64,000 nt of DNA from Desulfovibrio sp. JC010. Its GTDB lineage: Bacteria > Desulfobacterota > Desulfovibrionia > Desulfovibrionales > Desulfovibrionaceae. This document shows positions 50,921 through 63,994 of the stretch, in pieces (the first letter of the stretch is position 1; each line of letters begins with the position of its first letter). Where the stretch lies: positions 26,243-90,242 of the forward strand of contig NZ_VOIQ01000008.1 in NCBI RefSeq assembly GCF_010470675.1. The letters are read 5' to 3'. A model generated the notes under the pieces. It saw nothing but the letters and a program-made list of their open reading frames with translations, did not search any database and was not told the origin of the DNA. A program made the position numbers and the translations under genes.

Positions 50921-52426
50921 CTACTCGGAAGCAGTCTGGGGCTGTGCCTGAGCTTCTTTGCTCTTGAAGAAAACAGGAATATCTTCACGGCCCAGAATAC
51001 TCTTGCGCACGACAGCTTCAGGAAGGTTCGCCCATTCACCCCTGCTGGAGAAATAGAAGAACACACCCATGACTACCCAGGTAACCATGCACCAGCGGGA
51101 AGCCTCACTGATGTATGCCGGGGAGCCGGGAATAAGCAGCAGCACGATGGAAAGCACGGAAGCCAGAATACCCATCACGCAGCAGAACTGCTTGACCAGA
51201 CGGTCGGAAACGCCCTCGGACCCCATCAGAACACGGCGTGCTGCAAGGCAGGAGAATAGATACCCGATACCGGTACCCACGGAACTCATGTCCACAATCC
51301 AGACCACAACGGAACGTCCGGCAAAGGGGGTCAGCAGGACGATAGCCATGGTGAAGAGCAGGGCTTTGTGAGGTGTGCGGTATTTGGGATGGATATCACC
51401 GAACCATGCAGGCAGAATGCGACCGCGAGCCATGCTCAGCAGCAGACGGGAGGTGGCGATGTAAAAACCGTTGATCCCGGTGCAGACCGCGCCCATAACC
51501 GCGCAGGCCAGAACAACTGCGCCCAGCTTACCGAAAGCCATGGCCGCTACTTCGCCTGTGGCCCATGCGGTTCCGCCGGTGGCGCGCATGGCGTCCATTT
51601 TAGCCAGCATTTCAGGAACGGGGATAGCAATACCTACGGCCAGAGTAACCAGAGAATAAAGAACAACACCGCACAGAATGGCGATGATCATGATGTTGCG
51701 TGCACGGGCCGGCTCAAAGGTGAATTCCTCTGCGGCCTGCGGCACAGTATCAAAGCCCACAAAGAGAAAGGGGGAGATAGCGAAAATGATCAGTACGCAG
51801 GAAAGCTCGGAACGGTGCTCTGCAAACAGGGGTGCGAGGTTGCCGAGTTGCGCGGTTTCAAGGGAAGCGGAACCGGTGAACAGAGCCACGATACCGATAG
51901 TCAGCAGGAAGGCCAGCATAACCTGCAATTTACCTGCAAAGCTATTGCCGCGATAGTTCATCCAGCCGAAAAGCAGGGTTGCCGCGGTCATGAGAATTAC
52001 TTCACCTGTATAAACCTGCCACCCGGCTATGGAGTACAGCGGTCCGAATTCAAAGACCCCCGGAAAAAGGAAACGGAATATCAACGCCAGTGCGGCAACG
52101 TCGATGCCGATGATGGCTATGTACCCAAGCACGAGTGCCCACCCGCAGACAAAAGCCGCAGTGGGTCCAAAGCCGACATAAGCATATGCAAACGCGCCGC
52201 CTGCAACAGGGGCGTACTTGATCATATAGCTGTAGCAGACCGCTACAAAGCAAATCAGAAATGCGCCGACACCGAAGCCGATCAGGGTACCCATGATACC
52301 GGCCTGCGGAAGAAACATATCACCGGGGAGAACAAAGCACCCCCAGCCTACAATTGACCCCAGCGCCAGTGCCCAGACCTGCGCGGGCGACATTGATTTT
52401 TCTAATTCCAGTTTTTCTTGTGACAT
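50921..52426 (-). CDS. APC superfamily amino acid permease
   Basis: A 501-residue inner-membrane permease with about 12 hydrophobic segments. The first helix carries the unwound glycine motif ALGSIVGWGCFVLPG; PQAAEEFTFEPARARN is a conserved intracellular loop. The substrate is not readable. Expression starts from a minus-strand sigma-54 promoter and a leader of about 240 nt with two strong hairpins. Divergent from the DUF4125-TauE unit, which also has a sigma-54 promoter. Confidence 0.87.
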   Translation of the reverse strand: MSQEKLELEKSMSPAQVWALALGSIVGWGCFVLPGDMFLPQAGIMGTLIGFGVGAFLICFVAVCYSYMIKYAPVAGGAFAYAYVGFGPTAAFVCGWALVLGYIAIIGIDVAALALIFRFLFPGVFEFGPLYSIAGWQVYTGEVILMTAATLLFGWMNYRGNSFAGKLQVMLAFLLTIGIVALFTGSASLETAQLGNLAPLFAEHRSELSCVLIIFAISPFLFVGFDTVPQAAEEFTFEPARARNIMIIAILCGVVLYSLVTLAVGIAIPVPEMLAKMDAMRATGGTAWATGEVAAMAFGKLGAVVLACAVMGAVCTGINGFYIATSRLLLSMARGRILPAWFGDIHPKYRTPHKALLFTMAIVLLTPFAGRSVVVWIVDMSSVGTGIGYLFSCLAARRVLMGSEGVSDRLVKQFCCVMGILASVLSIVLLLIPGSPAYISEASRWCMVTWVVMGVFFYFSSRGEWANLPEAVVRKSILGREDIPVFFKSKEAQAQPQTASE

Positions 52427-53013: not shown

Positions 53014-53574
53014 ATGGCCGAAGATAAACGTATACAAATCATAGAAAATATCATCGCACTGGAACTGGACATGTTCCTTGCAGTGAAGAACCGCGGCGGC
53101 ACCGCTGCCTGTCAGGAGCACCCGGATTCTTTCCGCATCATGCGCAACATGACCCACGGAGTAATGCCGGACGATTACCTTGAATCCTACCTCGCCGACC
53201 TTGAAAAAGCAGTGGCCGACAAGCGCAATCTCATGACCGAAAAATACGCGCTCATGGAAGGACTCATCCCGGTACAGAACGATTCCCCGGCCATTGCCGC
53301 CATCGTCCAGCTGGAAAGCGAATGGCGCAAGGAAGTAGCCGCCCAGTTCCCCCGCGCCGTGCATCCTGACGGACACCAGTCCTTCTGCATCTACCTTGGC
53401 AGTGAATTACAAACCTACTCCTCCGGAACTCTGGACATCTATCTGAATTACGCCCGCTCCGTGCAGCAAAAACACGGCAACCTCGTGCGTGAAAGATACG
53501 AAATCCTCATGCGCAAGCTGGGTTACGAGTCCCTCACCCATTGCGAAGAATCACTATCCAAACCAACAAAGTAA
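53014..53574 (+). CDS. DUF4125-like protein
   Basis: A 186-residue soluble, helical protein (ENIIALELDMFLAVKNRGG, QEHPDSFRIMRNMTHGVMP, RNLMTEKYALMEGL). I recognise it as DUF4125-like, from memory. AAAGGAG precedes the ATG. It is 6 bp before the tauE-type gene under a sigma-54 promoter. No catalytic function is known to me. Conserved Glu, His and Arg residues are present but not diagnostic. Confidence 0.68.
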   Translation: MAEDKRIQIIENIIALELDMFLAVKNRGGTAACQEHPDSFRIMRNMTHGVMPDDYLESYLADLEKAVADKRNLMTEKYALMEGLIPVQNDSPAIAAIVQLESEWRKEVAAQFPRAVHPDGHQSFCIYLGSELQTYSSGTLDIYLNYARSVQQKHGNLVRERYEILMRKLGYESLTHCEESLSKPTK

Positions 53575-53580
53575 AATTTC

Positions 53581-54315
53581 ATGTTCGATTCACCACACAC
53601 CCTTGTTTTCCTGCTCTGGCTGATCGGCGGATTTGTATCCGGGGTCAGCGGTATCGGCGGGGCCATGGTCGCTGTTCCGGCAGCGGCAATGTTCATTCCC
53701 ATGCAGGAGTTGGTTCCCCTTGCCTGCCTGCTTAACGTCATCATGGACGGCAGCATCGCGGCCATGCATTTCCGGCACTGCCGCTGGTCCGCACTTAAGC
53801 CGCTGCTGGTCGGCTCCGTACCCGGAGCTTTTGCCGGGCTGTACATCCTGACCTTTGTTTCCAGCACCATCCTACAGGGAGCGGTCGGTGCGCTGCTCAT
53901 CTATTACGTGTACTGGCAGCTCACCTTCAAAGTCAAAAAAACTCACCCGGAATCATGGTCACGGGGCAGTGCCGCCGGATTCGGAGCCAGCCTGCTCGGC
54001 ACGGCTATCTCATTCGACGGACCGCCCATCGGGGCCTACGGTCTCTATGTAGGCTGGGCACCGCGCGTATTCCTCGGCACCCTCGGGGTCTTTTTTGTTA
54101 TCCGGGCCACTTTCACCTGCATCCTGCAGGGCAGTGCCGGGCTGATCACCCCCACGGTAATCGACTACGCCATCTACGGAGCACCGGCTACACTCATCGG
54201 GACCCTGCTATCCTTTCCGGTAATCAAGCACATCAATCAGGATTTATTCCGCAAAGTGCTCATGACCGTAATCGCACTGGCTGGAGTCGTCTGTCTGGTC
54301 AGATCATTCCTTTAA
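53581..54315 (+). CDS. TauE/SafE-type sulfite/organosulfonate exporter
   Basis: A 244-residue membrane protein of seven to eight helices with the TauE signatures SGVSGIGGAMVAVPAAAMFIPM and GASLLGTAISFDGPPIGAYGLYVGW. Family members export sulfite, sulfoacetate or related anions. A role near islA (which releases sulfite) and the sigma-54 regulated genes here is plausible but not proven. Second gene after a sigma-54 promoter. Confidence 0.85.
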   Translation: MFDSPHTLVFLLWLIGGFVSGVSGIGGAMVAVPAAAMFIPMQELVPLACLLNVIMDGSIAAMHFRHCRWSALKPLLVGSVPGAFAGLYILTFVSSTILQGAVGALLIYYVYWQLTFKVKKTHPESWSRGSAAGFGASLLGTAISFDGPPIGAYGLYVGWAPRVFLGTLGVFFVIRATFTCILQGSAGLITPTVIDYAIYGAPATLIGTLLSFPVIKHINQDLFRKVLMTVIALAGVVCLVRSFL

Positions 54316-54472: not shown

Positions 54473-55969
54473 TTAAAAATCTTCTCCAATTCCTAATTGC
54501 TGAATTTTATAGCGCAAACCGGCCCCGGTAATCTGCATAATACGGGCGGCCTTGGCCACATTGCCGCCCGTTACTTTGAGTACGTTCTTGATGCATTCAA
54601 TTTCGTACTGCTGCACGCAGCTTTTAAGCGGAACCACGCTGTTGCGCTTGATCAGGCTGTAATCAAAGAAATTCTTGCCGAGCATGGACTCTTCAGCCTG
54701 CGGCGCGGCCGTTTCAGCACTTAGAGGTGTAGGCATGTAAGAATTTTCGCAGGCTTCGCGGAAATGACGGGGCAGATTCTCCACCCCGATAGAATACCGT
54801 TCGCCAAGCAGGGCAAGGCTGCCCTCGATAACGTGGAGCAACTCGCGCACGTTACCCGGCCAATCGTAATCGAGGAACATCTGAAGAACATCCGGTTCCA
54901 CCCCGATGAGTCCGGGTGAACTGGTCTGTTCCGAACAGGCAATGAATGAACGAATGAGCACGGTCAGGTCTTTCTTGCGCTCACGCAGCGGCGGAATGGC
55001 TAAGCCCACCACCGCCAGACGGTAAAACAGGTCACTGCGCAGGATGCCATAACTTACGGCATTAAGCGGAGCTTCGTTGAGGATGCTGATCACCCGTACG
55101 TCCACGGGAATTTCCTTTTGCGAACCGAGCCTGCGGACCCGCTTCTCCTGCAACACGCGTAGCAGCTTGGCCTGCAAACCAAGCGGCATGGAGTTAAGTT
55201 CATCCAGCAGCAGGGTTCCGCCGTCCGCTTCCTCAAACAGACCGGGCTTATCCGGGGCATCGGTGTAGGCCCCTTTGGAGGTACCGAAAAGAATGGCTTC
55301 AAGCAGGTTCTCCGGGATAGCCGCGCAGTTCTCGGCAATAAAAGGCTTTTCCCTGCGCTCGCTTTCCATATGGATGGCCTGCGCGAATACTTCCTTACCG
55401 GTACCGCTCTCGCCCCAGATCATGACGTGCGAAGAAGACCTGGCCGCAGTGCGGGCCTCGGCCAGCACCTCGCGCAGGGAATCATCCTCGCCCACGAGGG
55501 AATCAAAGGTGTAATATGAATAGTTTTTATCGCGGGCTGCGGACTTGCGGGACCGCTTCTTGGAATCACCAAGAGGCACTGATCCGGTCCAGAGGGTGAA
55601 GGTGATTACCCCATCCTTACGACCCTGATCGTAAAGCGGGAAAAAGTCGGAAACAGTCCCGGCAAGATAGTTGTTGGTGGTCTTGTAAAGGTAGCTTTTC
55701 TTCAGAATCGGCTCATTTTTACGCAGACATTCGACTGTGGGAATGCAATCCAGCTCGTGAGGCACGTAGAGCTTGGTGATGTGCTGCCCTTCCACATGGA
55801 TGCGTGAAAACCCGTCCGCCTTGCGCTGGATGGGGTTCATGTACTCGCAATACCCTTCACTATCCACCACCGCCACTCCCAGTCCCAGATCATCCCAGAT
55901 GGCAAGCATCTCCGGGGTCAGCACACTGCGGCGGCTGACATTACGAAACTTTTCCCTGCTAAAATACAT
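54473..55969 (-). CDS. Sigma-54-dependent activator with PAS domain, divergent from the GRE operon
   Basis: A 498-residue enhancer-binding protein. N-terminal PAS domain (about 18-135; GLGVAVVDSEGYCEYMNPI), AAA+ domain with Walker A GESGTGKE (186-193), Walker B TLLLDELNS, and a Fis-type helix-turn-helix at the end (GGNVAKAARIMQITGAGLRYKIQQLGI). The sigma-54 contact loop reads GAYTDA (233-238) instead of GAFTGA. It is divergent from the GRE operon and probably activates its sigma-54 promoter, and perhaps the neighbouring ones. Confidence 0.9.
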   Translation of the reverse strand: MYFSREKFRNVSRRSVLTPEMLAIWDDLGLGVAVVDSEGYCEYMNPIQRKADGFSRIHVEGQHITKLYVPHELDCIPTVECLRKNEPILKKSYLYKTTNNYLAGTVSDFFPLYDQGRKDGVITFTLWTGSVPLGDSKKRSRKSAARDKNYSYYTFDSLVGEDDSLREVLAEARTAARSSSHVMIWGESGTGKEVFAQAIHMESERREKPFIAENCAAIPENLLEAILFGTSKGAYTDAPDKPGLFEEADGGTLLLDELNSMPLGLQAKLLRVLQEKRVRRLGSQKEIPVDVRVISILNEAPLNAVSYGILRSDLFYRLAVVGLAIPPLRERKKDLTVLIRSFIACSEQTSSPGLIGVEPDVLQMFLDYDWPGNVRELLHVIEGSLALLGERYSIGVENLPRHFREACENSYMPTPLSAETAAPQAEESMLGKNFFDYSLIKRNSVVPLKSCVQQYEIECIKNVLKVTGGNVAKAARIMQITGAGLRYKIQQLGIGEDF

Positions 55970-56303
55970 TTTTCACAACCTCTCTCTTTCCCCGGAACGG
56001 CTCAAAACCGGTTTGAACCTCCGGTTGCTGATGGGGTCGATAAATAAAAAAATATTTTTTGGCAAATAAAAATTTTAATCAAAAAAGAAAAATTTCTTTC
56101 TTTTTGCTTTTCCACCCCCTTCACACTATCAACGCCGCTTGTGCGCTTTTAAACACTTCTATTTCAAAAGCTTATAGTAATTTTTTGCCCACAAAACCGT
56201 CTCTGGCACAGCCCGTGCTAGTGACGGATTTAACAAGCGAACGAATCAAACTTTCAATCTACCTAAAAGACCAAAAACAATAGCACAATCACAGGAGATG
56301 GAA
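55970..56303. promoter_or_regulatory. Regulatory region between the activator and the GRE operon
   Basis: About 330 bp, very AT-rich. It contains an inverted repeat TCAAA-N5-TTTGA (56002-56016) about 190 bp before the sigma-54 promoter at 56204, the right position for an activator site, and a CCGGTTGC that recurs upstream of islA. Confidence 0.5.
56204..56219 (+). promoter_or_regulatory. Sigma-54 promoter of the GRE operon
   Basis: TGGCAC-AGCCC-GTGCT: correct -24/-12 spacing, one mismatch from TTGC, 84 bp before the GRE start. Confidence 0.78.
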
Positions 56304-58757
56304 ATGAATACTACCCTGTCTGCAAAAGAAGAAACCAGAACTGCCGAAGGATACGGCATCAACTGGGATACAGCTGAAGACCGCGTCAAGGAACTCAAGG
56401 ATTACCTCATGAACGCTCCGCAGGTCATGGACCCCGAGCGTCTGAAGTTCCTGAACGAAGTATATGAAAAACATCAGGGTGAACCTGTAGTATATGTCCG
56501 CGCCAAAGTTCTGGAACGTGTACTAACCCAGAAAAAAATCTTTCTCGACGGCAACCCCATTGTAGGTACCCTTACAGGTGTGCGTGCCGGTGTTTACGCC
56601 TACCCCGAATGGAACGTCTCCTGGATCAAAGAAGAAATGCAGATGGCCAAAATGGCCTCCCTCGGCGAAATGAAAATCCCCGCCGAGACTCAGGAACTGC
56701 TCGAAAAGACCTACAAGCTCTGGAAAGGCCGCACCGCCATCGACCAGAACAACAAGATGTACAAGGAAAAGTACGGTGAAAGCGCGAAGAAGTACGCCAA
56801 AGCAGGCATGTACTACGAAAACGTTTCCGTTGCTTCCGGTTCCGGTATCGCTGATTACGGCATGGTGCTGAACAAAGGTATCCGCCACCTTATGGAAGAA
56901 GTGCGCACCCGCCTCACCGAAACCCAGAACACCCTTGCCAACCGCGACAAGATCGACCTTTACCGCTCCATGCTGATCACCTTTGACGCGGTAATCAAGC
57001 ACTCCCACCGCTACGCTGATCTGGCTGAAAAGACCGCGGCTGAAGAATCCGATCCTAAAGTAAAAGCGGAACTGCTGGAAATCGCAGAAATCTGCCGCCG
57101 CGTTCCCGAACACCCGGCCCGCAACTTCCGCGAAGCTATCCAGTCTTTCTGGTTCACCCACCTCTGCGTGGCAACCGAGCAGATGGCCTGCGCAGTTTCC
57201 CCCGGTCGCTACGGCCAGTACATGTACCCCTTCTTCAAAAAAGACATTGACGAAGGCAACCTGACCCGCGAGCAGGTTCTGACCATGCTCAAGTTCCAGT
57301 GGATTCGTCACCTCGAACTGGGCGAATATCAGGGCAACTCCTACGCGCTGACCCTTTCCGGACACACCGGGCAGTCCATGACCATCGGCGGTGTGGATAA
57401 AGACGGCCGTGATGCTTCCACCGAACTGGAAGAGCTCATGCTCGAAACCCAGATTCAGATGAAGAGCATCCAGCCCACCCTGACCCTGCTTTACCATCCG
57501 AAGCTCAAAGAATCCTACATGCAGAAAGTTGTTGAGTGCATCCGCGGCGGTTCCGGCCAGCCCCAGATTTTGAACAACAACGCAGTTATCCAGCGCACCC
57601 TCGCCCGTTTTGCGCAGTACCCCGACGGCATCACCCTTGAAGATGCCCGTAACTGCGGTAACTACGGCTGCGTATCCACCGGTGTCTGCGGCAAAGGAAG
57701 TTTCATCACTCAGGAAGACCAGCCCTGCCTCGCAAAAGTTGTGGAACTGGTGCTTAACAACGGTAAATGCCCGGTAACCAAGAAAAAGGTCGGCGCAGAA
57801 ACCGGAGATCCCATCACTTTCGAAACCTTCGAAGACCTTTACGAAGCAGTAAAAGGACAGCTGGACAACCTGTTCCGCATTTCCCGCGCCCACTCCGATC
57901 TCAGCCAGATGGCCCGCCTGCAGGTTGTACCGAGCGTATTCCGCTCCGCCATGTACGACGGCTGCATTGAAAAGGGCATGTGCGAGGAAGCAGGCGGAAC
58001 CCGCTACCCGCAGGTCAACCCGATCATGACTGCAGGTATCGATGCCGCCAACTCCATCCTCGCCATCAAGCACCTTGTATACGATACCAAGGCTGTAACC
58101 ATGGAAGAGCTGCTTGAAGCACTCAAGGCCAACTTCGAAGGTTACGAAGAACTGCGCCAGATGTGCTTTGACGCACCCAAGCACGGCAACGATGTGGAAG
58201 AAGTTCAGGAAATCGTTCAGCGTTTCTACCGCGATGTGGATGAAATCCACCACTCTCAGGGTCCGGACTGCTTCGGACAGCGTACCCCGCTTGATGCATA
58301 CTCCCTTTCCTACCACAACTACTTCGGCGGCATGATGGGCGCACTGCCCAACGGTCGTAAAGCAGGCGTGGCCCTCACCGACGGCAGTGTTTCCGCAATG
58401 CCCGGTACCGACAAGGAAGGCATCACCGCACTGATCAAATCCGGTGCTGAAGCAATCGATACCGTCCGTTACGGCGCGAACCACTTCAACGTGAAGTTCT
58501 CCCCCTCCGTACTGGAAGGTCCGCAGGGCGCGAAAACCCTGATCTCCCTGATCAAGACCTACTGCGATTTCGGCGGATCTCACATCCAGTTCAACTGCGT
58601 AAGCTCCGATACCCTCAAGGATGCGCAGCAGAACCCGCAGGATTACTCCGACCTTATCGTACGCGTGGCAGGCTTCAGTGCCTACTTCACCCGCCTCGAC
58701 TGCGGCGTGCAGAACGAAATCATCAAACGCACCGAATACGACGCAGGTCGTTGCTAA
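56304..58757 (+). CDS. Glycyl radical enzyme of unknown substrate, lacking the usual active-site Glu
   Basis: An 817-residue enzyme of the PFL-like GRE superfamily. ATG 56304 is used because the AGGAG at 56293 is spaced 6 nt from it, while ATG 56298 touches it. The thiyl cysteine is in NYGCVSTG (Cys456) and the glycyl radical in RVAGFSAYF (Gly790). Dehydratase, C-S and C-N lyase and arylacetate decarboxylase GREs normally have Glu two residues after the Cys (GCVE or GCAE); here it is Ser458, with a further Cys in STGVCGKG. Fumarate-adding GREs also lack this Glu, but their small subunits are absent. Substrate unknown. First gene of a sigma-54 operon with an activase. Confidence 0.85.
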   Translation: MNTTLSAKEETRTAEGYGINWDTAEDRVKELKDYLMNAPQVMDPERLKFLNEVYEKHQGEPVVYVRAKVLERVLTQKKIFLDGNPIVGTLTGVRAGVYAYPEWNVSWIKEEMQMAKMASLGEMKIPAETQELLEKTYKLWKGRTAIDQNNKMYKEKYGESAKKYAKAGMYYENVSVASGSGIADYGMVLNKGIRHLMEEVRTRLTETQNTLANRDKIDLYRSMLITFDAVIKHSHRYADLAEKTAAEESDPKVKAELLEIAEICRRVPEHPARNFREAIQSFWFTHLCVATEQMACAVSPGRYGQYMYPFFKKDIDEGNLTREQVLTMLKFQWIRHLELGEYQGNSYALTLSGHTGQSMTIGGVDKDGRDASTELEELMLETQIQMKSIQPTLTLLYHPKLKESYMQKVVECIRGGSGQPQILNNNAVIQRTLARFAQYPDGITLEDARNCGNYGCVSTGVCGKGSFITQEDQPCLAKVVELVLNNGKCPVTKKKVGAETGDPITFETFEDLYEAVKGQLDNLFRISRAHSDLSQMARLQVVPSVFRSAMYDGCIEKGMCEEAGGTRYPQVNPIMTAGIDAANSILAIKHLVYDTKAVTMEELLEALKANFEGYEELRQMCFDAPKHGNDVEEVQEIVQRFYRDVDEIHHSQGPDCFGQRTPLDAYSLSYHNYFGGMMGALPNGRKAGVALTDGSVSAMPGTDKEGITALIKSGAEAIDTVRYGANHFNVKFSPSVLEGPQGAKTLISLIKTYCDFGGSHIQFNCVSSDTLKDAQQNPQDYSDLIVRVAGFSAYFTRLDCGVQNEIIKRTEYDAGRC

Positions 58758-58810: not shown

Positions 58811-59704
58811 ATGTCACAAGGCATGATTTATAATATTCAGCGTATGTCGCTCCATGACGGTCCGGGCCTGCGTACAACTGTATTTTTAAAAGGCTGCCCG
58901 CTAACCTGCTTGTGGTGCAGCAACCCGGAATCGCAGCAGGTCAAACCGCAGCTGATGTGCTTTACTGAGCTGTGCACCGCATGCGGAACCTGCTCCGAAG
59001 TCTGTCCCAGCGATGCCGTTATCGAGATTGACGGCAAGTTCGGCTGCGACAGCGACAAATGCACCAGCTGCGGAACATGTACTGAAAAATGCGCAGGTAA
59101 AGCCCGTGAAATTTCCGGCAGGACCATGACCGTTGAGGAAGTCATGAAAGAAGTGCGCAAGGATTCGCTCTTCTACGATAACTCCGGCGGCGGGGTGACC
59201 TTCGGCGGCGGCGAACCTACCTCCGGCGGGCAGTTCTTCCTTGATATGGTCGAGGCTGCGGTGAATGAAGGCATCCACGTAACAGTTGATACCTGCGGCT
59301 ACTGCCCGGAAGAACGTTTCGACAGGACCATCGAACTTGCGGACCTGTTCCTCTTTGACTGTAAACACATGAACCCGGAAGAGCATAAAAAACTGACCGG
59401 GGTGGATAACAAAATCATCCTGCGCAACTTGGGCGCGGCCCTTTCTTCCAACAAGGAAGTACGGGTGCGCATGCCGCTCATGCCGGATATGAACGATTCC
59501 GAAGAAAACATCGCGGCCATGGCAAAGTTCCTGAAGGGATACGGACACGACAAGGTGGAAGTCATGCCCTGCCATGCTTTCGGACGCAACAAATACGCCG
59601 CCCTTGGCTGGGAATACAAAATGGACCGCGAATACACCCCACAGCAGCTGGATGAAGTTTTCAAACGTTTCGCTGACCACGGCCTGAAAACCGAGATCAT
59701 CTAA
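58811..59704 (+). CDS. GRE-activating enzyme (radical SAM, with two extra Fe-S clusters)
   Basis: A 297-residue activase that installs the glycyl radical. The radical SAM motif is Cys29-x3-Cys33-x2-Cys36 (CPLTCLWC). A ferredoxin-like insert (residues 50-98) has cysteines 50, 55, 58, 61, 65, 79, 84, 87, 90 and 94, enough for two [4Fe-4S] clusters, as in activases of the dehydratase/lyase type GREs. Next come GGGVTFGGGEPTSGG and DCKHMNPEEHKKLTG. CGGAG lies 6 nt before the ATG. It acts on the preceding GRE. Confidence 0.92.
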   Translation: MSQGMIYNIQRMSLHDGPGLRTTVFLKGCPLTCLWCSNPESQQVKPQLMCFTELCTACGTCSEVCPSDAVIEIDGKFGCDSDKCTSCGTCTEKCAGKAREISGRTMTVEEVMKEVRKDSLFYDNSGGGVTFGGGEPTSGGQFFLDMVEAAVNEGIHVTVDTCGYCPEERFDRTIELADLFLFDCKHMNPEEHKKLTGVDNKIILRNLGAALSSNKEVRVRMPLMPDMNDSEENIAAMAKFLKGYGHDKVEVMPCHAFGRNKYAALGWEYKMDREYTPQQLDEVFKRFADHGLKTEII

Positions 59705-59727: not shown

Positions 59728-60255
59728 ATGAACTGCTCACTGACTGAAAAGCTGATCTGCGAAGCCGGCGGACGCGAAGCAAAGGAACTATACGGCAGCG
59801 ATGCCATGTGCTGCTCCGAAGCTGTGCTCTGGGTCATCAACCGCCAGTTCCATGGCGGCTTGAGCAAAGAAACGGCTGTTGCGCTGAGTAAAGGTTTCTG
59901 CGGCGGCATCGGTGACGCGGGCTGTGTCTGCGGCGCGCTGTCCGGCGCGGTCATGGGTTTGTCCCTGATCCTCGGCAAAAGACCACTCCCCGCTGACGAG
60001 GATCAGGTGCGCTCCCTTTGCAAAGAACTGCACGACCGCTTTCTTGCAGAACACGGCAGTGTCTGCTGCCGGACCTTGAGCCGGGACCGGGACCCCGATT
60101 CAGAATCAAAAGGCGTCTGCCTGACTTATGTGCAGTCCGCAGCTGCGATCTGCACCGGACTGCTCCTTAATCCGGCATCTGCTGGACTTTCTGATGAGCA
60201 AAAGACCGGACCATATATAAATGAATCAACAGCGGAACAGACCGCTTTGATATAA
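59728..60255 (+). CDS. C_GCAxxG_C_C family redox protein
   Basis: A 175-residue protein with the family cysteine pattern: Cys28-Cys29 (MCCSEAVL), Cys58 (GFCGGIG), Cys66 and Cys68 (GCVCGALSGAVMGL) and Cys-Cys in VCCRTLS. Function in the family is unknown; it is often near redox or Fe-S genes. It is 23 bp after the activase and before the selenoprotein gene, so a role in Fe-S or radical maintenance of the GRE system is possible, but this is inference. Confidence 0.82.
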   Translation: MNCSLTEKLICEAGGREAKELYGSDAMCCSEAVLWVINRQFHGGLSKETAVALSKGFCGGIGDAGCVCGALSGAVMGLSLILGKRPLPADEDQVRSLCKELHDRFLAEHGSVCCRTLSRDRDPDSESKGVCLTYVQSAAAICTGLLLNPASAGLSDEQKTGPYINESTAEQTALI

Positions 60256-60280
60256 CCGAAACCATTAATGGAGAGAGAAT

Positions 60281-60574
60281 ATGTTTAACGTTACCGTTCC
60301 CGAAGAGATGCTTGAAAAGCTCCGGGACATGCTTGAAGACGAAGATGAAGAGTCCTGTGTACGCCTCCGTGAATATAAGGTAGGCGGCGGCTGACACGCT
60401 AAAATAGTGCTCGGTCTGGGCATTGACGAAGCGGATGAAGACGAAGACGTGCAGGTTGAAGTAAGTGATGTTCCTTTCATCGCCGAAGAAGACTTCCTCA
60501 CCAAATACGGCAAAGATTTTTCCCTTGTTTTCAATGAAAACAAGGAAGTTGTACTCACTGCGCTCAGTGCGTAA
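60281..60574 (+). CDS. Selenocysteine-containing IscA/HesB-like protein (in-frame UGA)
   Basis: A 97-residue reading frame with TGA at codon 38 (60392-60394). ATG 60281 has GGAGAGAG upstream. The product begins MFNVTVPEEMLEKLRDMLED, has VRLREYKVGGG before Sec38 and continues AKIVLGLGIDEADE, then DVPFIAEEDFL. This matches the A-type carrier fold, with Sec where E. coli IscA has its first conserved Cys (Cys35); the C-terminal CGCG is absent. Exactly 18 nt after the UGA is the hairpin TGCTC-GGTCT-GGGCA, the same loop and spacing as I recall for the fdhF SECIS. Codon use and protein character are continuous across the UGA. It belongs to the GRE operon. A normal gene caller would miss or truncate it. 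Confidence 0.88.
60405..60425 (+). other. SECIS element of the HesB-like selenoprotein gene
   Basis: Stem 60405-60412 with 60418-60425 (8 bp, with three G-U pairs) and loop GGTCT at 60413-60417. The loop begins 18 nt after the UGA codon. The GGU apical bases are those needed for SelB binding in known bacterial SECIS elements. Confidence 0.85.
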
Positions 60575-60620: not shown

Positions 60621-60655
60621 AATCCCCCTGCAAACTCCCTTGCGGGGGGATTTTT
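60621..60655 (+). terminator. Terminator of the GRE operon
   Basis: AATCCCCCTGCAA pairs with TTGCGGGGGGATT (13 bp, 6-nt loop) followed by T's. It lies 47 bp after the selenoprotein stop, confirming that the transcript extends through the region after the UGA. Confidence 0.88.
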
Positions 60656-60917
60656 AATGTCCACCGTATATATTACGCCGGTGTCCGGCTTCAACAACAA
60701 GAACAAGCAACTTTTCGTCTTCAAGTTTTGTCAACACCCGGTAATTTCCAACCCGGTAACGCCAATATCCTGCAAGGTTACCGACCAGCCCTTTCCCCTG
60801 ATCTCTAGGATTCTCCGGCAGGTTGTCCATGTAATCAACAATGCGCAGGGCTGTTTGTTTATCCAGCTTACGTAAGCTCTTCTTGGCCCGTGCGGTATAT
60901 TCAACCTTCCAAGCCAA
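60654..60917 (-). CDS. RelE/ParE-type toxin
   Basis: An 87-residue basic protein with the RelE fold signature: WKVEYTARAKKSLRKLDKQ, GNLAGYWRYRVGNYRVL and a C-terminal VEAGHRRNIY. It is probably a ribosome-dependent mRNA endonuclease. The start overlaps the antitoxin gene by 17 bp. Located between the two GRE loci, which suggests an acquired module. Confidence 0.9.
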   Translation of the reverse strand: MAWKVEYTARAKKSLRKLDKQTALRIVDYMDNLPENPRDQGKGLVGNLAGYWRYRVGNYRVLTKLEDEKLLVLVVEAGHRRNIYGGH

Positions 60918-61125
60918 GGTCTTTTCTCACTTCTGCGCTGGTAAATGTTTTCTTGCCGCTCTCCAGATGTTCTTCATATGCCTGAACTGCAAGCAGGTGA
61001 TCTTCTTTATCTTCAAGAAAACTTATAATCGCTTTCTTAGCGTAATAAGACTTGGTGCGCCCGGTCTTTTCAGCAAGCTGAGTCAACTTCTGTTCAATTT
61101 CTTCAGGTAATCTTACGGATAACAT
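60901..61125 (-). CDS. RelB/StbD-type or ribbon-helix-helix antitoxin
   Basis: A 74-residue acidic protein whose N-terminus is a ribbon-helix-helix DNA-binding motif (LSVRLPEEIEQKLTQLAEKTGRTKSYYAKKAI), the rest being a toxin-binding tail. ATG 61125 has AGGAGG 8 nt upstream, so the 61149 start is rejected. First gene of the toxin-antitoxin operon. It likely autoregulates through the palindrome at 61140-61166. Confidence 0.88.
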   Translation of the reverse strand: MLSVRLPEEIEQKLTQLAEKTGRTKSYYAKKAIISFLEDKEDHLLAVQAYEEHLESGKKTFTSAEVRKDLGLEG

Positions 61126-61139
61126 TTGAGTATCCTCCT

Positions 61140-61166
61140 TGTCATACATGTAAGTCTTGTATGACA
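61140..61166. promoter_or_regulatory. Antitoxin operator
   Basis: TGTCATAC (61140-61147) and GTATGACA (61159-61166) form a perfect 8-bp inverted repeat with 11-bp spacer at the toxin-antitoxin promoter. Confidence 0.65.
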
Positions 61167-61427: not shown

Positions 61428-61443
61428 TGGCACACTCCATGCT
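61428..61443 (+). promoter_or_regulatory. Sigma-54 promoter of islA
   Basis: TGGCAC-ACTCC-ATGCT: correct -24/-12 spacing, one mismatch; 70 bp before the islA ATG. Confidence 0.75.
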
Positions 61444-61513: not shown

Positions 61514-63994
61514 ATGGAATGTTGTCGTTCACCTCATGAGCAGATGCTCGAAGATAAAATCGCAGGTAAAACCAACCCTTACCGCGAGACACACAAGCGT
61601 GTTTTCAAAATCCTCGACACCATCGAGAACCAGAAGCCCGCAATTGATGTAGAGCGTGCTCTTTACTTCACCAAGTCCATGGAACAGACCGAAGGCCAGC
61701 CCCTGATCCTGCGCTGGGCTAAAGCAATGAAGAACGTTGCTGAAAACATCACTGTATACATTGATGATGACAACCTCCTCTGCGGCCGCGCCGGCTACCC
61801 CGGTCGTTACGGTATCCTCTACCCCGAACTGGACGGTGACTTCCTCGACATGGCTGTTGAAGAACTGCCCAAGCGTTCCGGTTCTCCCTTCTCCATTACT
61901 GAAGAAGACGCTAAGACCGTTATCGAAGAAATCGCTCCTTTCTGGAAAGGCAAGACCTACCACGAAGCTCTGAACCAGGCTCTGCCCGAAGAAGTACACA
62001 CCCTGACCTACGATGATCCTGAAGGTCTGATCTCCCGCTTCATCGTCAACGAAACTTCTTCCTTCCGCTCCTCCCTGCAATGGGTTCACGATTTCGAAAA
62101 GATCCTCAAGCGTGGTTTCGGCGGCATCCGTGCTGAAGCACAGGAAAGACTCGACAACATCGATACTTTCTCCCCCAAAGCCAACACCAAGGAAATTCCT
62201 TTCCTCGAAGCTATCGTAATGATCTGCGACGCTGTTGTCCTCTGGGCCAACCGCCACGCTGATCTCGCTGAAGCAAAAGCTAAAGAAGAGAAAGATCCTA
62301 CCCGCAAAGCTGAACTGGAAACCATGGCTGCTGTTTGCCGCAAGGTTCCCGAACAGCCTGCTACCAACTTTCACGAAGCAGTACAGTCCCAGTGGTTCAC
62401 CCAGATGTTCTCCCGTCTTGAGCAGAAGACCGGTACCATCATCTCCAACGGCCGCATGGACCAGTACCTCTACCCCTACTACGAGCAGGACGTTGAAGCA
62501 GGTATCCTTGACGAAGACAAGGCTATCGAATTCATCGAGTGCATGTACGTAGGCATGGCTCAGTTCATCGACCTCTACATCTCCCCTCAGGGCGGCGCAT
62601 TCAACGAAGGCTACGCACACTGGGAAGCTGTTACCGTCGGTGGTCAGACCAAGGACGGCGTTGATGCTACTAACGATCTCACCTACCTGTTCCTGCGTTC
62701 CAAGCGTGAGTTCCCGCATCACTACCCCGACCTCGCTGCACGTATCCATGCACGTTCCCCCGAGCGTTTCCTCGCTGAAGTTGCTGAAACCATCAAAGAA
62801 GGTTCCGGTTTCCCGAAACTGATCAACGATGAAGAAGTAATTCCCCTGCACCTCTCCAAAGGCGCAAAATTCGAGGAAATCTACGACTACGCTGTATCCG
62901 GCTGCGCAGAAATCAGAATGCCCAACCGCGACACCTACACTTCCGGTAACCCCTACATCAACTTCGCAGCAGCGGTTGAGATGGTTCTTTACAACGGAAA
63001 GATGCAGAAATACGGCGACAAGCAGCTCTCCATCGCAACCGGCGATCCCTGCTCCTTCAAGACCTGGGATGAGTTCTACGATGCTTACAAAGCACAGCAC
63101 AATAACTTCCTGAAGAACGCTTTCGTTCAGCAGGCCAACGTTATCCGTCTGCGTAAGAACCACTTCGCAACACCTTTCGGCTCCGCAATGCATGACCTGT
63201 GCATGGAAAGCTGCACCGACCTGCACCAGCCCGACGTACCCGGCGGAATCGACCTCGGTTACTTCGAATTCATGGGCCTCGGTACTGTTGTTGACTCCCT
63301 CGTTGCCATCAAGAAACTCGTCTTCGAAGACAAGGTTCTGACCATGGAACAGGTTATCGAAGCTTGTAAAGCAAACTTCGAAGGCCACGAAGACGTTCGC
63401 GCAATGCTCCAGAACATCCCCTGCTACGGCAACAACGATCCTTACCCGGATTCCATTGCCAAGGAACTGGACGAACTCTGCGTATCTTTCGCACAGAAAT
63501 ACCAGATGGAACTCGGCGTACACCTCGACGTTCGTTACGTGCCCTTCACTTCCCACGTACCTTTCGGCAAGGTTGTATCCGCTACTCCTAACGGCCGCTA
63601 CGCATTCACCCCGCTTTCCGACGGTTCCTCCGCATCCCACGGTGCAGACAGAAACGGTCCCACCGCGGTTATGCTCTCCAACTACACCACCAAGAACTTC
63701 AACTACCGTGAACGTGCAGCACGTCTGGTAAACATCAAGTTCACCCCCAAGTGCGTGGAAGGAGAAGAAGGCACCAAGAAGCTGGTAGACTTCATCCGCA
63801 CCTACTGCGACCTGCGCCTCTGGCACATCCAGTTCAACGTAGTTAACGCGGACACTCTGAAGAAAGCTCAGGAAAACCCCGAGCAGTACCGCAACCTGAT
63901 CGTTCGTATCGCCGGTTACTCCGCATACTTCTGCGACCTCTCCAAGGATCTGCAGGACGACCTGATCAGAAGAACCGCACACGAAACCATCTAG
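61514..63994 (+). CDS. islA: Isethionate sulfite-lyase (glycyl radical C-S lyase)
   Basis: An 826-residue GRE that splits isethionate into acetaldehyde and sulfite, feeding dissimilatory sulfite reduction. ATG 61514 follows AAGGAGA; an upstream in-frame start (61418) lies inside the promoter and is rejected. Catalytic residues: thiyl Cys464 and Glu466 in SGCAEIRMP, glycyl Gly801 in RIAGYSAYF, and substrate-binding Arg185, Gln189 and Arg674. As I recall the Bilophila enzyme (Arg189, Gln193, Cys468, Glu470, Arg678, Gly805), every position is offset by exactly 4, strong evidence for the assignment. The activase (islB) and transporter genes must lie beyond the window end. Driven by a sigma-54 promoter. 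Confidence 0.9.

Follow-up and report, generated by a model that had tools for sequence, protein, structure and literature searches.

The window, a stretch of 64,000 nucleotides from Desulfovibrio sp. JC010 (genome G000; 4.39 Mb, 99.96% complete), contains a series of genes on the same strand that ends with a small gene for a Sec-containing, ErpA-related protein with an IscA fold (60281..60574, +). The series starts with a gene for a glycyl radical enzyme (GRE) of an uncharacterized clade (56298..58757, +), which has the PFL-like and Gly_radical domains (PF02901, PF01228) and both radical sites, Cys458 in the loop GCVSTG and Gly792 in the motif RVAGFSAYF. The following genes encode a radical SAM activase of GREs that has additional Fer4 clusters (58811..59704, +; TIGR02494, 356.5 bits; Pfam) and the Cys form of a C_GCAxxG_C_C putative redox protein (59728..60255, +; TIGR01909, 80.1 bits; PF09719, 98.9 bits), which is separated from the Sec gene by a gap of 25 bp. 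An operon of these four genes had been proposed in an earlier note on this DNA, and it is borne out by the same-strand order and by the NCBIfam and Pfam assignments.

The sequence TGGCACAGCCCGTGCT (56204..56219, +), about 80 bp upstream of the GRE start, may be a sigma-54 promoter for the operon; sigma-54-type matches are no more numerous in the window than expected by chance, and only the position of this one is suggestive. The divergently oriented gene upstream encodes a PrdR-like sigma-54-dependent regulator (54473..55969, -; PF00158; NF041552, 315.7 bits, below the cut-off), which is conserved beside this GRE clade. Further upstream, genes for a TauE/SafE-type exporter (53581..54315, +; PF01925), a DUF4125 protein (53014..53574, +; PF13526, 181.9 bits), and an amino acid permease of the APC type (50921..52426, -; PF00324/PF13520) are found, which recur in 7, 7, and 9 loci of the clade, respectively. 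A possible intrinsic terminator follows the Sec gene (60635..60649, +), with the number of such structures in the region not clearly exceeding that in shuffled sequences. Between this unit and a second GRE unit lies a RelE/ParE-type toxin and RelB-type antitoxin pair (60654-61149, -), which was not seen at the same place in other loci of the clade. The second GRE (61514-63994) is a (2S)-3-sulfopropanediol dehydratase, HpsG (NF048011, 1538 bits), with a sigma-54-like site at 61428-61443 and its own activase just beyond the edge of the window.

The Sec gene is preceded by a leader with the Shine-Dalgarno-like sequence GGAGAGAG (60264..60280, +), has an in-frame UGA as codon 38 (60392..60394, +), and ends with TAA, all as described in the earlier note. 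Translation with TGA as U gives a product of 97 amino acids, MFNVTVPEEMLEKLRDMLEDEDEESCVRLREYKVGGGUHAKIVLGLGIDEADEDEDVQVEVSDVPFIAEEDFLTKYGKDFSLVFNENKEVVLTALSA, which is the sole match to this protein in its own genome. Homologs were found in 16 of 197 related genomes; together with those on four further contigs, they align end to end, codon 38 being either UGA or a codon for Cys. The proposal that there is coding sequence on both sides of the UGA is thus supported by a reading frame and a Sec/Cys position that are conserved across genomes. UGA serves as a stop in most genes, and with a true stop at this place the gene would encode a 37-residue peptide or be a pseudogene. The earlier note had named homologs ending at residue 37 as a sign of this, but the homologs run past this residue with conservation to the C-terminus in all of them, Cys replaces the UGA elsewhere, and the Sec machinery is present; a true stop is thus rejected by homology and can practically be dismissed. 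The 122-codon antisense reading frame that had also been pointed out does exist, but it was rejected as a real gene, as conservation tracks the sense frame and the antisense frame merely mirrors it.

Of the genes for Sec insertion to which the earlier note had drawn attention, selA (612 bits), selB (392 bits), and selD (332 bits, with a TGA inside selD as well) are encoded in the same genome as the Sec gene, and selC is represented by a tRNA-Sec (82.5 bits; anticodon tca according to ARAGORN). In G070, which has a Cys copy only, selB is matched much less well (best hit 2e-57) than in the other genomes.

Downstream of the UGA, a bacterial SECIS-like hairpin is formed by the arms 60405-60412 and 60418-60425 (+) with the G-bearing apical loop GGUCU at 60413-60417. 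The spacing of exactly 18 nt between the UGA and the GGTCT loop agrees with the earlier description, whereas the stem, given there as 5 bp, actually comprises 8 bp (TAGTGCTC/GGGCATTG). An Rfam search found nothing, and the folding energy of the hairpin is unexceptional (z -0.55). When synonymous codons were shuffled, the 8-bp stem was reached in 0.05% of trials for the window copy, whereas for many other homologs the same stem arose in about 14% of trials. Single copies are thus weak evidence, and the contrast between Sec and Cys copies is the real test. A stem of 5 bp or more with a five-base loop starting exactly 18 nt past the UGA is kept in 16 of 17 different Sec copies, 14 of which have the loop GGTCT; such a stem occurs at this place in none of 12 Cys copies. 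GGTCT is retained in four Cys copies because the peptide is identical there. The argument for a SECIS element is carried by this positional conservation in the presumed Sec copies and its loss in the Cys copies. Comparative analysis confirms 60281-60574 (+) as a predicted selenoprotein gene, with UGA38 expected to be decoded as Sec with the aid of a SelB-type hairpin. The UGA readily leads automatic annotation and ordinary gene finders to truncate such a gene.

The tree of the homologs, which requires 8 changes between the Sec and Cys states, at least 5 of them on well supported branches, shows a repeated exchange of the two residues within the family, as read from the codon at position 38. 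Sec and Cys copies also occur in tandem, namely in G055, G074, G079, G105, G191, G504, and one Mailhella genome. Two short and divergent copies from multi-copy arrays have neither Cys nor Sec at the active position; these are the extra family members L026 (880) and L033 in the arrays of G105 and G019. Another divergent copy, L029 (G027:C149:95553-95789), has its Sec shifted by one residue (GCGVUSSK) and is located 3 kb away from the Cys copy of the same genome, which lies beside the GRE.

The product belongs to the same family as the NCBIfam model NF033940 (ErpA-related), which it matches over its full length with 141.7 bits against a curated cut-off of 65 (residues 1-94). The name of this model mentions neither Sec nor a GRE partner, and no paper naming the family was found among the open-license papers searched. 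The models for ErpA and IscA_HesB_Se gave about 24-26 bits; for ErpA itself (NF010147), the score of 23.7 bits is below the cut-off of 117. There was no Pfam match at E<=0.001, the A-type family included. The predicted structure has an A-type (IscA/ErpA) fold: the AlphaFold2 model (pLDDT 93.5) resembles IscA, SufA, HI1723, and DsrR, with IscA and SufA as the best solved relatives and with structural Z-scores of 10.9 for DsrR and 10.8 for IscA, which amounts to a tie; the scores span 10.5-10.8 for IscA and 10.3-10.8 for the IscA/SufA/ErpA carriers. Sec38 aligns with the Cys of the GGGC motif in HI1723 and ErpA-type proteins, in agreement with the earlier suggestion that Sec stands opposite the first ligand Cys of IscA. 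The absence of the C-terminal Cys pair, which had been noticed as well, is evident from the translation, with no Cys near the C-terminus, and from the alignment, in which a C-terminal CxC is missing across the family; Cys26 is not conserved among divergent members. The protein shares with IscA, SufA, and ErpA the fold and the position of the first Cys, but it differs from them in having Sec at this position, in lacking the C-terminal CxC, and in being bound to the operon of one enzyme.

Every homolog was found at a locus with a GRE, which nearly always belongs to the clade of 56298-58757 and is usually accompanied by its activase. Among the 197 genomes, 16 encode both the small protein and a GRE of the clade, none encodes the small protein alone, 3 encode the clade GRE alone, and 178 encode neither (Fisher 7e-21, a P value that overstates independence because the genomes are related). 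No homologs occur in the 59 genomes whose GREs all lie outside the clade. In a phylum sample of 395 genomes, five genomes exceeded the NF033940 cut-off, and the GRE was adjacent in all five. With a profile, partners of two GREs that are more divergent (46-49% identity) were added; a Cys-type partner accompanies the more divergent GRE of G074 (49%). The exceptions comprise G042, in which the contig ends inside the GRE, G178, in which a divergent Sec copy (GGUACTAS) directly follows the activase, and G107, in which no partner was found near a clade GRE (48%). These data support the assignment of the Sec/Cys protein to the GRE of its own operon (56298-58757) and that enzyme's clade, and not to the neighboring HpsG, as far as can be judged from gene distribution. 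A partnership with HpsG was rejected because the family is absent from genomes with HpsG-like and other GREs, because a relBE-type pair intervenes, and because HpsG is equipped with a sigma-54-like site and an activase of its own. A Cys copy in G051 (L048, contig C2) is located beside a GRE with a CVEP-type, choline-lyase-like loop on the opposite strand, together with a C_GCAxxG_C_C gene and about 9 kb from a GRE of the clade.

No cut-off of an NCBIfam equivalog was reached by the GRE 56298-58757, HypD being the best match with 510 of 1100. Across the clade, the catalytic loop has the form CV[SGAT][TS]. The Glu two residues past the catalytic Cys, which is present in HypD, choline lyase (CutC), glycerol dehydratase, and the window's own HpsG, is absent in the clade, and the GRE of the window has CVST in place of CVE; this suggests a chemistry that differs from Glu-assisted elimination. 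The recurrent genes for the DUF4125 protein, the TauE/SafE exporter, and the amino acid permease may point to the substrate of the GRE. Taken with the PrdR-like regulator, these neighbors gave no single answer, and the TRAP or EamA transporters found elsewhere likewise failed to single out a substrate. A TGA flag hinted at a Sec codon in the G105 GRE, but the aligned region contained none.

With a probability of roughly 0.5, the product of 60281-60574 is a Sec/Cys A-type protein that is dedicated to the GRE and serves in the assembly or protection of Fe-S or radical cofactors in the GRE and its activase. Radical SAM enzymes receive [4Fe-4S] clusters from A-type proteins such as IscA and ErpA. 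The activase encoded at 58811..59704 has, according to Pfam, ferredoxin-type clusters in addition to its radical SAM cluster, and, as it needs several Fe-S clusters, it is a natural customer of such a protein; given the IscA fold and the tie to one GRE/activase pair, a dedicated maturation or protection factor is the simplest explanation. The Sec protein would serve only one GRE clade and would make or protect oxygen- and redox-sensitive parts, chiefly the [4Fe-4S] clusters in the activase, with Sec38 replacing the first Cys of IscA as the group that reacts or serves as a ligand. After the loss of the C-terminal Cys pair, a cluster could be bound only across a dimer or with a partner, or the selenol might serve as a redox group. 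Classical cluster transfer is thus doubtful, and cluster binding, the target, and the step performed by the protein are what we infer here. To our knowledge, no dedicated carrier is needed for the maturation of most GRE activases, that of the HpsG system included, which counts against a maturation role. The clade GRE without partner in G107 and the two divergent copies without Cys or Sec likewise argue against it. A more specific and more tentative proposal is that the GRE clade without the usual Glu relies on a dedicated Sec/Cys A-type protein in which the C-terminal pair has been lost; this would represent an undescribed selenium-dependent step in the maturation of the glycyl radical or the activase.

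Linkage alone does not tell which protein is the partner, and the loss of the C-terminal ligands leaves room for other roles. The protein could be an accessory subunit of the GRE, comparable to BSS beta: like BSS beta and gamma, it is small, is encoded alongside a GRE, and is specific to it, and it is strictly tied to one clade, whose missing catalytic Glu makes its chemistry unlike that of the usual dehydratases. BSS accessory subunits are known to control thiyl radical formation, as BSS beta does (PMC12590467). However, the BSS subunits have a HiPIP-like fold and no homology to the Sec protein with its IscA fold, and one would not normally expect tandem copies or an alternation of Cys and Sec in a structural subunit, which makes this role a rather unlikely one, though it deserves consideration. 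A selenol/thiol redox protein that acts with the C_GCAxxG_C_C protein to repair or reduce oxidized Cys or quenched radicals, with the IscA fold as a mere scaffold, would fit a single conserved Sec/Cys without a second ligand pair, the adjacency of this putative redox family in several loci, and the view that most uncharacterized selenoproteins are redox-active (PMC13188914). It is improbable, as many loci have no C_GCAxxG_C_C gene and a resolving pair of the type CxxU or UxxC is missing, with Cys26 not being conserved in divergent members. Less probable still is a cluster-free regulator or scaffold with an IscA fold that is bound to its operon, a role suggested for DsrR, which is encoded in the dsr operon. 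Among the structural matches, DsrR of Allochromatium vinosum ranks first (Z 10.9), level with IscA, and it also belongs to a single operon, but its ligand Cys residues are reportedly absent, whereas Sec/Cys38 is kept in nearly all members of the present family.

HesB-like selenoproteins are already known (PMC1794560, PMC13188914) and have the UxGP motif of TIGR01911 (PMC13188914); the function of the one from Methanococcus has been described as unclear (PMC11097638). The earlier reference to this class was correct in that the class exists, but the protein of the window belongs to a separate family, NF033940, and was absent from the TIGR01911 matches at E<=0.001 (cut-off 66.35 bits). Both belong to an A-type fold family, have Sec in place of the first ligand, are encoded with a SECIS, and occur in anaerobes, whereas the window protein has GGGUHxK instead of UxGP, lacks the C-terminal Cys cluster, and is tied to a GRE. 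While the family has already been modeled by NCBI, the linkage of a Sec/Cys A-type protein to a GRE clade is new: no paper joining HesB/IscA-type selenoproteins to GREs was found in the open-license literature, and in the literature searched, known GRE systems have an activase and sometimes Fe-S accessory subunits, but none has a dedicated selenoprotein or A-type protein. Through this linkage, unexplained HesB/IscA-type selenoproteins gain a concrete candidate for a partner enzyme, and an uncharacterized GRE clade with a different catalytic loop is flagged.

A genome-wide search with TIGR01911 did not recover the Sec gene but two other loci, which encode further HesB-like proteins (L078, G000:C6:40660-40887, and L079, G000:C5:85171-85386), both below the cut-off of this family. 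One of them has a Cys at the corresponding place, and the other, the copy at G000:C6:40660, is TIGR01911-like with a TGA (GGUAGPRL) and a Cys-rich C-terminus. As these separate HesB-like proteins of the genome keep the C-terminal Cys cluster, the window copy looks specialized.
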